DNA from: Aeromicrobium sp. IC_218
GTDB lineage: Bacteria; Actinomycetota; Actinomycetes; Propionibacteriales; Nocardioidaceae
Assembly (NCBI RefSeq): GCF_004336805.1
Contig: NZ_SJXM01000002.1
Span: forward strand, 186,001-250,000
DNA: 64,000 nucleotides
Direction of reading: 5' to 3'
Shown: positions 56,894 to 60,709 of the stretch, one piece after another
How the letters are laid out: each line of letters opens with the position of its first letter
How positions within the stretch are numbered: position 1 is the stretch's first letter
Translations under genes and position numbers: made by a program
The notes under the pieces: generated by a model
What the model saw: the letters and a program-made list of their open reading frames with translations, nothing else
What the model was told of the DNA's origin: nothing
Databases searched by the model: none

Positions 56894-59779
56894 TCAGCTG
56901 CAGCCGCTGGTCGAGCCGCAGCCCTCGCAGACGTGGCACGAGCCGGCCGGACGCATCTTGGTGCCGCAGGTCATGCACAGCGGGCTGTCGACCGCCGAGC
57001 CGGTGATGACCTCGAGCAGCTCCGCGGACGTGTGGGCCTGCGCCGGGGCGGCCTTGGCCGTCTCGGCGACGACCTCGGCCGGGGTCTCCGGAGCCGGAGC
57101 CGACGCCGTGGCCTCGACCGGAGCACCCTTCTCGGTCGGCGCGGACTCGACGAGCTCGGCGGCCGTCGTGCCGTTGCTGACCGGCTGGTGCGAGCCGGTG
57201 TCCAGGTAGCGCTGACGCTCCGCGGCCGAGTGGATGCCCAGGGCCGAGCGGGTGTCGAAGTCCAGGTAGTCCAGCGCCAGGCGGCGGAAGACGTAGTCCA
57301 TGATCGACTGCGCCATGCGGATGTCCGAGTCGTCGGTCAGACCGGCCGGCTCGAACTTCAGGTTCGTGAACTTCTGGACGTAGGTCTCCAGCGGCACGCC
57401 GTACTGCAGGCCGATCGAGACGGCGATCGAGAAGGCGTCCATCACGCCGGCCAGGGTCGAGCCCTGCTTGCCCAGCTTGAGGAAGAGCTCGCCGAGCTCA
57501 CCGTTCTCGTGCGCGCCGGAGGTCATGTAGCCCTCGGCACCGCCGACCGAGAAGGACGTCGTGATCGACGTGCGCGACTTCGGCAGACGACGACGGATCG
57601 GCTTCTCGACGACGACCGTCTTGACCTCGGTCTTCTCCGCCGGCTCCTCGGCCTTCTTGGCCTTGGCGTCGCTCAGCGGCTGGCCGACCTTGCAGTTGTC
57701 GCGGTAGACCGCGAGCGCCTTGAGGCCGAGCTTCCAGCCCTGGAAGTAGACGTCGGCGATCTCGTCGACCGTCGAGGTCTCGGGCATGTTGACCGTCTTG
57801 GAGATGGCGCCCGACAGGAACGGCTGCGCCGCGGCCATCATGCGGACGTGGCCCATCGGCTTGATGGCGCGCTCGCCGACCGCGCAGTCGAAGACCTCGT
57901 AGTGCTCGGTCTTCAGGCCGGGCGCGTCGATGACGTGGCCGTGCTCGGAGATGTACTCGACGATCGCCTCGATCGTCTCGTTGGTGTAGCCGAGCTTCTT
58001 CAGCGCCGCCGGGACGGTCTGGTTGACGACCTGCATGGAGCCGCCGCCGACCAGCTTCTTGAACTTGACCAGCGAGAAGTCCGGCTCGATGCCGGTCGTG
58101 TCGCAGTCCATCATGAAGCCGATGGTGCCGGTCGGCGCGAGCACCGACGCCTGGCTGTTGCGCCAGCCGGCCTTCTCGCCGATCTTCAGGTTCTCGGCCC
58201 ACTGCTTGGTGGCCTCGCGGTGCACGGCGATGTCCATCGCGTGCATCGTGCGGACGTCGTCGTTGGCCGCGAGGTGCTTGCGCATGACGCGGGTGTGGCC
58301 GTCCTTGTTCTGGGCGTAGCCGTCGTAGGCACCCACGACGCCGGCCAGCTCGGCCGAGCGGCGGTAGGACGTGCCGGTCATCAGCGACGTGATCGACGCG
58401 GCCAGCGCGCGGCCGCCGTCGGAGTCGTACGCCAGGCCCGAGGCCATGAGCAGCGCGCCGAGGTTGGCGTAGCCGATGCCCAGCTGACGGAAGGCACGCG
58501 TGGTGTCGCCGATCGCCTCGGTCGGGAAGTCGGCGAAGCAGATCGAGATGTCCATCGCGGTGATGATCATCTCGACGCTCTTGACGAAGCGCTGGACGGC
58601 GAAGCTGCCGTCGGCCTCGAGGAACTTCATGAGGTTCAGGCTGGCCAGGTTGCAGCTGGAGTTGTCCAGGTGCATGTACTCCGAGCACGGGTTGGACGCG
58701 GTGATGCGGCCGGCCTCGGGCGTGGTGTGCCAGTCGTTGATCGTCGAGTCGTACTGGATGCCGGGGTCGGCGCAGGCCCACGCGGCCTTGGCGATCTTGC
58801 CCCACAGGTCGCGGGCGTCGATGCTCTCGATGACCTCGCCGTTGGTGCGGGCGCGCAGACCGAAGTCGGTGCCCTCCTCGACGGCGCGCATGAACTCGTC
58901 GTTGACGCGGACCGAGTTGTTGGCGTTCTGGTACTGGACGCTGGTGATGTCGGAGCCACCGAGGTCCATGTCGAAGCCGGCGTCGCGCAGGACGCGGATC
59001 TTCTCCTCCTCACGCTCCTTGGTCTCGACGAACTCCTCGATGTCGGGGTGGTCGACGTCCAGGACGACCATCTTGGCCGCACGACGCGTGGCGCCGCCGG
59101 ACTTGATCGTGCCGGCCGACGCGTCCGCACCGCGCATGAAGGAGACCGGGCCCGACGCGGTGCCGCCCGAGGAGCGGAGCAGCTCCTTGGACGAGCGGAT
59201 GCGCGAGAGGTTGAGGCCGGCACCGGAGCCGCCCTTGAAGATCAGGCCCTCCTCGCGGTACCAGTTGAGGATCGAGTCCATCGAGTCGTCGACGGCCAGG
59301 ATGAAGCAGGCGCTGACCTGCTGCGGGCTCGAGGTGCCCACGTTGAACCACACCGGGCTGTTGAAGCTGAAGACCTGGTGCAGGAGCATGTGCGTCAGCT
59401 CGTGCTCGAAGACCTCGGCGTCCTCGTCGGAGGCGAAGTAGCCGTGGTCCTTGCCGGCCTTGACGTACGTCAGCACGACGCGGTCGAGCAGCTGCTTGAG
59501 GCTGGACTCACGCTCGGCCGAGCCCACCGCGCCGCGGAAGTACTTGGTGGTGACGATCGTCGAGGCGTTCAGGCTCCAGAAGTCGGGGAACTCCACGCCA
59601 CGCTGCTCGAAGACGTTCTCGCCGGTCTTCCAGTTGGTCTGGACGACGTCGCGACGCTCCCACGTGACGGCGTCGTACGGGTGCACGCCCTCGGTGGTGT
59701 AGACGCGCTCGATGGTCAGGCCCTTGGCCTTCCCCTTGGCGCGGCGGGGGCCGGTCTGGCCGCTGACGGTCTCCGTCAT
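56894..59779 (-). CDS. nrdJ: Vitamin B12-dependent (class II) ribonucleotide reductase
   Basis: A 961-residue adenosylcobalamin-dependent reductase that makes deoxynucleotides with or without oxygen. N-terminal VWFNVG, SGAGLNLSRIRSSKE, NPCSEYMHLDNSSCNLASLNL (near 365), the FDCA region, and the radical-site and finger-loop segments are present; the C-terminal CMTCGTKMRPAGSCHVCEGCG zinc/thiol tail typical of actinobacterial NrdJ is intact. ATG 59779 has GAGGAG upstream. It follows nrdR by 84 nt on the same strand, as in Streptomyces. I saw no cobalamin riboswitch in the gap. Confidence 0.97.
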   Translation of the reverse strand: MTETVSGQTGPRRAKGKAKGLTIERVYTTEGVHPYDAVTWERRDVVQTNWKTGENVFEQRGVEFPDFWSLNASTIVTTKYFRGAVGSAERESSLKQLLDRVVLTYVKAGKDHGYFASDEDAEVFEHELTHMLLHQVFSFNSPVWFNVGTSSPQQVSACFILAVDDSMDSILNWYREEGLIFKGGSGAGLNLSRIRSSKELLRSSGGTASGPVSFMRGADASAGTIKSGGATRRAAKMVVLDVDHPDIEEFVETKEREEEKIRVLRDAGFDMDLGGSDITSVQYQNANNSVRVNDEFMRAVEEGTDFGLRARTNGEVIESIDARDLWGKIAKAAWACADPGIQYDSTINDWHTTPEAGRITASNPCSEYMHLDNSSCNLASLNLMKFLEADGSFAVQRFVKSVEMIITAMDISICFADFPTEAIGDTTRAFRQLGIGYANLGALLMASGLAYDSDGGRALAASITSLMTGTSYRRSAELAGVVGAYDGYAQNKDGHTRVMRKHLAANDDVRTMHAMDIAVHREATKQWAENLKIGEKAGWRNSQASVLAPTGTIGFMMDCDTTGIEPDFSLVKFKKLVGGGSMQVVNQTVPAALKKLGYTNETIEAIVEYISEHGHVIDAPGLKTEHYEVFDCAVGERAIKPMGHVRMMAAAQPFLSGAISKTVNMPETSTVDEIADVYFQGWKLGLKALAVYRDNCKVGQPLSDAKAKKAEEPAEKTEVKTVVVEKPIRRRLPKSRTSITTSFSVGGAEGYMTSGAHENGELGELFLKLGKQGSTLAGVMDAFSIAVSIGLQYGVPLETYVQKFTNLKFEPAGLTDDSDIRMAQSIMDYVFRRLALDYLDFDTRSALGIHSAAERQRYLDTGSHQPVSNGTTAAELVESAPTEKGAPVEATASAPAPETPAEVVAETAKAAPAQAHTSAELLEVITGSAVDSPLCMTCGTKMRPAGSCHVCEGCGSTSGCS

Positions 59780-59863: not shown

Positions 59864-60358
59864 TCAGGGGATTTCGTGCTGGACCCGTTCGGTCTCGGCC
59901 AGCTCGCCGTCGGCGGAGGCGGCCATGAGCGTCGCGATCTCGGCGGCGAAGTCGTCGGCGGAGTCGAACGCCTTGTACACGCTGGCGAAGCGCAGGTACG
60001 CGACCTCGTCGAGCGCCTTGAGCGGCTCGAGGACGGCCAGGCCGACCTCGTGGGCGGGGACCTCGGCGCAGCCGGAGGCGCGCAGGGTCTTCTCGACCTG
60101 CTGCCCCAGACGGGCCAGGTCGTCGGTGGAGACCGGACGGCCCTTGCAGGCCTTCGCGACGCCGGCGACCGCCTTCTCGCGGACGAACGGCTCGGTCGCG
60201 CCCGAGCGCTTCACGACCATCAGCTGCATCTGCTCGATCGTGGTGAACCGCTTCTCGCACCGCGCGCACGTGCGGCGGCGGCGGATCGAGGCACCCTCGT
60301 CGGCGATGCGGCTGTCGAGCACCTTGGTGTCGTCGTGCTGGCAGAACGGGCAGTGCAC
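59864..60358 (-). CDS. nrdR: Transcriptional repressor NrdR
   Basis: A 164-residue zinc-ATP-cone repressor of ribonucleotide reductase genes. Zinc ribbon [11 protein letters not shown] ... [10 protein letters not shown] at the N-terminus, then the ATP-cone ([59 protein letters not shown]). GTG start at 60358. It heads the nrdR-nrdJ operon, and two NrdR-type boxes lie 98-137 nt upstream, so it is expected to repress itself and nrdJ when dATP/ATP-bound. Confidence 0.97.
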
Positions 60359-60385
60359 GAGCGGGCTCCTTCGGTGTCGTCGCGA

Positions 60386-60470
60386 TGTGGATGAAGCTGT
60401 GCGTCCCGCTGTGGAACACGGCGCTTCCTGTGGGTGGGACCGCCACTTCTGTGGAACTAGATGTGGAGAA
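60386..60470 (-). promoter_or_regulatory. Cluster of DnaA-box-like motifs upstream of nrdR
   Basis: Reading the minus strand, TTCTCCACA (60462-60470) matches TTnTCCACA, TCATCCACA (60386-60394) has one change, and TGTTCCACA (60410-60418), AGTTCCACA (60450-60458) and CCACCCACA (60429-60437) are weaker. Five such sites within 85 bp is unusual; DnaA control of nrd promoters is known in E. coli. Weak sites may be chance. Confidence 0.4.
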
Positions 60471-60499
60471 CTACACCCGTGTAACTACTAGATGTAGGG
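60453..60499 (-). promoter_or_regulatory. Two NrdR-type boxes, 31 bp apart
   Basis: The 9-mer ACATCTAGT (minus strand) occurs at 60456-60464 and again at 60487-60495, a spacing of 31 bp or three helical turns, as reported for paired NrdR boxes. Each sits in a 16-bp half-palindromic context (CCACATCTAGTTCCAC; CTACATCTAGTAGTT). They lie just upstream of nrdR, presumably over its promoter. Confidence 0.8.
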
Positions 60500-60709
60500 G
60501 AACCGTACGCCCTCGTCCCGGCTCGTGCAAGCACCTTCGCAGGGCCCACCGACAGACCTCTCCGACACCGCTCGGACGCGCCCGGAATCCCGGGCCGGAC
60601 GCCCCCGGAGCGTGCCTGGCGACACACCGCGCGGCGGCGATCCGTCCGACCGCCAGCGCGACGGACCGGGCTCGCTTACTGTGTGCTGGTGCCGAGGGAG
60701 GGGACGCGC

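Follow-up and report, generated by a model that had tools for sequence, protein, structure and literature searches.

The nrdR-nrdJ locus

The window analysed here is a 64-kb stretch of DNA (64,000 nucleotides) from an Aeromicrobium strain, whose 3.31-Mb genome is assembled in 25 contigs. On its minus strand the window carries the gene for the ribonucleotide reductase (RNR) repressor NrdR, the closest named relative of which in the nrdR search is that of Aeromicrobium massiliense JC14 (98% identity). The next gene is nrdJ, coding for a B12-dependent class II RNR, and the divergent neighbour encodes a PAS-GGDEF-EAL protein. The mechanically delimited open reading frame of nrdJ extends to 59854, and judging from the sequence the ATG at 59779 is its likely start.

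59864..60358, minus strand: nrdR, RNR repressor, 164 aa, GTG start (TIGR00244, 171 bits against a cut-off of 124.65)
56894..59779, minus strand: nrdJ, B12-dependent class II RNR (NF005122, 1595 bits)
60366..60371, minus strand: Shine-Dalgarno sequence AAGGAG of nrdR, read from the sequence

Searches of the strain's own genome gave no match for the class I RNR small subunit (0 matches) and did not find NrdD, and thus nrdJ is the only RNR found there. Across the genus, the class I small subunit occurs in 14 of 49 genomes.

The region upstream of nrdR, here termed the leader, was compared among 87 leaders, 47 from genomes of the genus and 40 from actinobacterial loci (of 80 loci; those of other phyla, L071-L110, were left out). 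These reduce to 65 distinct leaders, 49 of which form the genus set: 48 from Aeromicrobium and one from a neighbour (L045), which has the same leader as a locus of the family sample (L202).

Paired NrdR boxes and a putative promoter

The preliminary description of this DNA had pointed to two NrdR boxes 31 bp apart and to five TGTGG motifs beside them, and both observations are borne out. The window contains two copies of the word ACATCTAGT and no more, both on the minus strand (60456-60464 and 60487-60495) and offset by 31 bp; shuffled windows had 0.06 copies on average, and two copies in none of 100 cases. The five TGTGG motifs lie at 60386, 60410, 60429, 60450 and 60462, on one strand and within 81 bp (38 occur in the window as a whole), and one of them fits the DnaA-box pattern TTNTCCACA. 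The geometry of the box pair is the published one: NrdR tetramers with dATP and ATP repress via two boxes about three helical turns apart (PMC9110341, PMC12051234). Every leader of the genus set has a spacing of 31 or 32 bp (49/49). Searched with two mismatches, the NrdR pattern is uninformative genome-wide (874 matches versus 2047 for the reversed control).

60525..60530, minus strand: putative -35 element TTGCAC (consensus match only)
60502..60507, minus strand: putative -10 element TACGGT after a 17-bp spacer (all 49 leaders have a TANNNT within 45 bp ahead of box 1, which is a weak test)
60487..60497, minus strand: NrdR box 1, core CTACATCTAGT (mean column identity 0.94 in 49 aligned leaders)
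60456..60466, minus strand: NrdR box 2, core CCACATCTAGT (31 bp from box 1)

By sequence, the operon thus has an NrdR box pair at three-turn spacing beside a putative RNR promoter, in a genome that carries nrdR. The order along the minus strand is -35, -10, NrdR box 1, box 2, the DnaA-like sites D1-D6 described below, the Shine-Dalgarno sequence and the GTG of nrdR. Since the putative -35 and -10 elements precede box 1, transcription probably starts within NrdR box 1, which would put the array of sites in the nrdR 5'UTR. The -35 hexamers and spacers that pair with TANNNT vary across the genus set.

The stretch between the boxes (60467-60486; GTTACA...GTGT...TT) is similar in nrdRJ leaders and in the leaders of class I RNR operons (L302-L312); it may be part of what NrdR requires of its operator, e.g., DNA bending.

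An array of DnaA-like sites in one direction

The cluster of TGTGG motifs noticed at the outset is real, and its placing is corrected here: read in the sense of nrdR, the motifs are CCACA, and they lie downstream of the likely promoter. Scored with a motif derived from the replication origins (oriC) of the genus (see below), they and one weaker word give the following sites, the core identities of which refer to CCACA in the 49 leaders:

60462..60470, minus strand: DnaA-like site D1, TTCTCCACA, overlapping NrdR box 2 (score 10.7, core identity 1.0)
60450..60458, minus strand: DnaA-like site D2, AGTTCCACA, after a 3-bp gap from D1, with which it forms a double box (score 8.5, core identity 0.85)
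60429..60437, minus strand: DnaA-like site D3, CCACCCACA (score 6.9, core identity 0.91)
60410..60418, minus strand: DnaA-like site D4, TGTTCCACA (score 10.3, core identity 0.93)
60398..60404, minus strand: weak DnaA-like site ACGCACA, 12 bp from both D4 and D6 (score 3.1, below threshold)
60386..60394, minus strand: DnaA-like site D6, TCATCCACA (score 13.3, core identity 0.82)

D1 and D2 both overlap NrdR box 2. Most of the sites are imperfect, as only one of them fits TTNTCCACA, and D3 and ACGCACA are weak. That pattern occurs once in the window (60462-60470, minus strand) and in the whole 3.31-Mb genome gives 8 matches only, so that a direct count is too strict here.

When 64-kb sequences were simulated 300 times with a first-order Markov model, the number of TGTGG copies on one strand within 85 bp never exceeded three. 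At a threshold of 6, the oriC motif marks the leader as the densest place in the window, with five sites in 110 bp (next best, three), and at a threshold of 7 with four sites (next best, three); at a threshold of 5, two other places in the window equal it with five sites each. Three same-strand CCACA words with gaps of 5-30 bp occur at five places in the genome, with three overlapping matches at the nrdR leader only. Such a triple is by itself not significant, because its 8 matches compare with 7 for the reversed-pattern control; unlike the triple, the five-fold CCACA cluster and its conservation are significant.

Clusters of CCACA/TCCCCA are also seen elsewhere in the genome, at C17:15189-15258 (L179), C20:23787-23846 (L180) and C22:125750-125798 (L182), all intergenic by eye, and may represent further DnaA-binding regions. 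Next to the L180 cluster stand the palindromic sequence AATGACACCGGTGTCATT and a second, degenerate version of it.

Likeness to the replication origin

With the E. coli box as its seed and the number of sites fixed, the DnaA-box matrix was refitted on the intergenic region between dnaA and dnaN at 42 loci of the genus (from 49 dnaA loci, 7 of which were left out); outside the genus it was thus applied to species that had no part in its fit. Words strongly enriched at the origins of the genus include TCCACA, TTCACA and CCACAG, and also TAGTAG, which resembles DnaA-trios. The strain's own DnaA has the signature DHTTVMHA, and its C-terminal region aligns with the solved DnaA chain 3pvp (E 1.8e-30), a DNA-binding domain. 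The strain's own origin (L149:1270-1690) lacks TTGTCCACA and shows the box types GTCCACAG, GTGCACAG and GTCCCCAG, and its dnaA promoter (L149:3180-3250) carries two inverted copies of TTTTCCACA.

With this matrix, the array in the window has five sites of at least 6 bits. Every one of the 49 genus-set leaders has at least three sense sites, and 48 have at least four (mean, 5.41 sense versus 0.27 antisense), and 38 of the 39 leaders from other Nocardioidaceae likewise have at least three. The strand bias is also evident from the bare word CACA downstream of box 2, which is found 137 times in sense versus 5 times in antisense in the genus, 116 versus 2 times in the family and 54 versus 8 times in the class. 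The positions in front of CACA prefer T, mostly a purine, T and then a variable base, like TTATNCACA; the variable base is mostly C, followed by G and A, with T the rarest (2-4%).

The spacing of the sites is regular as well. Gaps of 11-12 bp make up 113 of 216 adjacent gaps in the genus, 55 of 135 in the family and 36 of 70 in the class, against 5-7% under random placement (the leaders are related, and the events are therefore not independent), and a second peak lies at 19-24 bp, near 21 bp. A tandem at 11 or 12 bp is present in 47/49 leaders of the genus set. The commonest gaps at oriC include 11, 12 and 21 bp, and also 9 and 43-44 bp; the latter two are not shared by the leader arrays.

The 3-bp gap between D1 and D2 falls within the 2-3 bp at which box pairs are preferred in DnaA ChIP-seq from E. 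coli, including at nrdA (PMC11317965). A table of high-affinity DnaA boxes (PMC4285127) includes TCATTCACA and TTGTCCACA, and on this account D6 (TCATCCACA) is a plausible box.

Conservation from genus to phylum

The array is present in 49/49 distinct leaders of the genus set. Their aligned consensus reads CACTACATCTAGTAGTTACAC-GATGTAGTT-TCCACATCTAGGTCCACAGG, followed by more CCACA units. After the second site, the core columns are identical at 0.88 versus 0.55 for the spacers, the columns being set by the CCACA words of the window itself. Within the genus set nrdJ adjoins nrdR in 35 of 38 loci checked, and the other three are contigs that end at or in nrdR.

Beyond the genus, 48 of 50 genomes sampled in the family were matched (39 leaders used, 9 left out), and 87 of 89 genomes sampled in the class outside the family (46 leaders used, 41 left out; 20 chosen to spread over families). 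Among the 46 class leaders, 36 have an NrdR pair and 23 at least three sites, and for 14 of the 24 other families sampled, one genome or more has the array. It is absent from the leaders sampled in the families labelled f3, f4, f9, f12 (two sites), f13, f14, f15, f18, f25 and f26. Some of the leaders lacking it have nrdJ beside nrdR (L267 of f13, L263 of f18, L254 of f9, and L060; L247 has two sites), and others an NrdR pair (f3, f14, f15 and f26), which argues that the array is dispensable.

Outside the family, the array was compared with the presence of nrdJ beside nrdR in 36 leaders, of which 26 are class loci and 10 are named loci. At least three sites were found in 18 of 23 with nrdJ beside nrdR and in 0 of 13 without it, a comparison in which at least some of the 13 lack the NrdR pair and kinship is uncorrected. 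Other classes were sampled with 50 leaders from 28 families (105 matched genomes, 55 leaders left out): in no case do three sense sites fall within 150 bp, the means being 0.38 sense and 0.80 antisense sites. Within 300 bp, three sites occur only in L337, which is AT-rich, and in L362, with four antisense sites, both without the layout of the array.

The preliminary description had named a lack of conservation of the TGTGG motifs as grounds for giving up its reading; as conservation was found at genus and family level and in a large part of the class, that reading survives. Its likening of the motifs to DnaA boxes holds at the level of sequence, given the match to the oriC motif and the spacings of 11-12 and 21 bp that are common at oriC.

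Fusion of the array with NrdR box 2

The array does not merely follow the NrdR boxes but enters one of them. In 47/49 leaders of the genus, 39/39 of the family and 25/36 of the class, one of the DnaA-like sites shares its register with box 2, whereas such a site in register with box 1 was seen in only 1, 0 and 4 leaders, respectively. In 17 of the 39 leaders from other Nocardioidaceae box 2 coincides with a perfect TTATCCACA, and the fused site, GTTATCCACA, holds a perfect box of the E. coli type.

A proposed composite NrdR/DnaA operator

Taken together, these features make it probable that the nrdRJ leader is a composite NrdR/DnaA operator, in which the array represents one-directional, helically phased DnaA boxes in the 5'UTR. 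The NrdR box pair would cover the presumed transcription start of nrdRJ. The D1-D2 double box, lying across NrdR box 2, would serve DnaA as a nucleation point from which to spread along the weaker sites; in doing so, DnaA would exclude NrdR from box 2 and/or block RNA polymerase just past the start. Expression of nrdRJ would then follow the level of DnaA, probably DnaA-ATP, around replication initiation. With its position downstream of the presumed start, the array would be better suited to obstruct polymerase when DnaA-ATP is high, and its overlap with box 2 would favour displacement of NrdR at lower levels.

By analogy with E. coli, we infer that DnaA binds the array and competes with NrdR. 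The preliminary description had proposed a coupling of nrdRJ to replication initiation, which we likewise infer, with support from the features of the leader. A more far-reaching version can be offered tentatively, and we hold it to be less likely than its opposite: NrdR, sensing dATP versus ATP/ADP, and a DnaA filament, sensing DnaA-ATP, might form a two-sensor switch, mutually exclusive on one fused site, in which DnaA competent for initiation moves the sole RNR operon of many actinobacteria away from dNTP feedback and under control by the replication cycle, and this switch might be ancestral and class-wide, with losses in some lineages.

Other readings of the array

Among the alternatives, an array that binds DnaA chiefly as a titration or reactivation locus, as datA and DARS do, with any effect on nrdRJ being secondary, fares best, although we regard it as improbable. 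It would account for several clustered boxes on one strand, and in 14 genomes of the genus (of 16 in one or two contigs) the separation of nrdR from dnaA amounts to 75-92% of that between dnaA and the opposite point of the chromosome. Yet a titration locus would not need a link to box 2 or to nrdJ, and therefore the fusion of a DnaA-like site with box 2 throughout the family and in 25/36 class leaders, as well as the absence of the array where nrdJ is not beside nrdR (0/13 outside the family), count against it.

Only marginally less probable is that the repeats bind another actinobacterial regulator that recognizes direct repeats with an 11-bp period, such as the response regulator MtrA or some other factor. 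The MtrA motif, a 9-nt direct repeat with 2-nt spacing (PMC6265350), indeed has the same period as the array. However, exact GTNAC pairs at an 11-bp period, as expected from the MtrA half-site GTnAC, number zero in all three leader sets and on both strands, and an MtrA operator was rejected on this basis; moreover, GTCACA requires T before CACA, the rarest base at this position (2-4%). Against any such factor stands the fact that the motif and the spacings of the array are also found at oriC.

The repeats might instead serve as extra half-sites for NrdR oligomers, given that the left half of box 2 is CCACA and that NrdR forms tetramers and octamers (PMC9110341). We consider this quite unlikely in view of the class I RNR operons of the genus, 11 of which (L302-L312, of 14; 3 left out) served as a control. 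Their leaders carry a cobalamin riboswitch in 11/11 cases, preceded by an NrdR-box-like pair with similar inter-box sequence; the pairs were recognized by eye, the automatic search having found the pair beside the riboswitch in 2/11. None has an array: there are 4 sense sites in total, at most 2 in any leader, and 20 antisense sites. Because these leaders combine NrdR-like pairs with a lack of repeats, the presence of NrdR boxes does not by itself entail the array. In addition, about a quarter of the repeats have G or A in place of the first C of the half-site, a position that appears to correspond to the conserved G-C pair in the box, and the repeats are uniform in orientation, whereas the NrdR box is palindromic. 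(In L302 and L303, a second riboswitch lies on the other strand.)

An RNA-level element, which a position in the presumed 5'UTR would allow, is very improbable: the only Rfam match up to E 1 scores 16.6 bits versus a threshold of 65.5, the only predicted fold is a 5-bp hairpin between the NrdR boxes (-0.99 kcal/mol; z -3.2 versus 60 column shuffles) with none in the array, and repeats recurring every 11-12 bp accord with the turn of the DNA helix rather than with codons. A chance cluster of CCACA words can practically be dismissed, for although one TTNTCCACA in the window is nothing unusual, with 28 of 100 shuffled windows also containing one, the cluster was reached in 0/300 simulations and shows conservation in the genus and family and in a large part of the class.

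Comparison with known systems

Control of RNR genes by DnaA is a known kind of regulation. In E. coli, DnaA can act on nrdAB as an activator or as a repressor, according to how much of it is present and which nucleotide it carries, and the available text of PMC8203912 describes such control for E. coli nrdAB and otherwise as a proposal for Caulobacter only. In the accessible parts of the openly licensed literature we found no report of DnaA boxes at actinobacterial nrdR or nrdJ, nor of a contest between NrdR and DnaA at one operator; in this sense a DnaA-like array at nrdRJ appears not to have been reported before.

The systems closest to the proposed composite operator each share a part of it. 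The nrdRJ and nrdAB operons of Streptomyces coelicolor have a box pair about three turns apart, and the same nrdR-nrdJ operon is found there; the word DnaA is absent from the main text of that paper (PMC9110341). Two leaders of family f15, from large genomes that are probably Streptomyces, have the boxes but no array. The datA and DARS loci resemble the array in having several DnaA boxes outside oriC, but feature IHF sites and IHF-dependent hydrolysis of DnaA-ATP or release of ADP, while the array is tied to the operator of one operon. The oriC and dnaA promoter regions of the genus share with it the motif and the gaps of 11, 12 and 21 bp, but the boxes of oriC occupy both strands, whereas those of the leader array are confined to one, and oriC further has TAGTAG words, with 9 and 43-44 bp among its common gaps.

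E. coli nrdAB is alike in combining a DnaA double box with a 3-bp gap, TTATCCACAaagTTATGCACT (PMC11317965), with NrdR boxes (PMC12176259). It differs in that the operon considered here codes for the class II enzyme NrdJ and is headed by nrdR, and in that the array is longer, one-directional, apparently downstream of the transcription start and fused to box 2. At the level of sequence, the array predicts a direct contest between NrdR and DnaA at one operator and, if DnaA binds, this conserved DNA element would represent a link between DnaA and RNR in a different phylum and with a different class of RNR.
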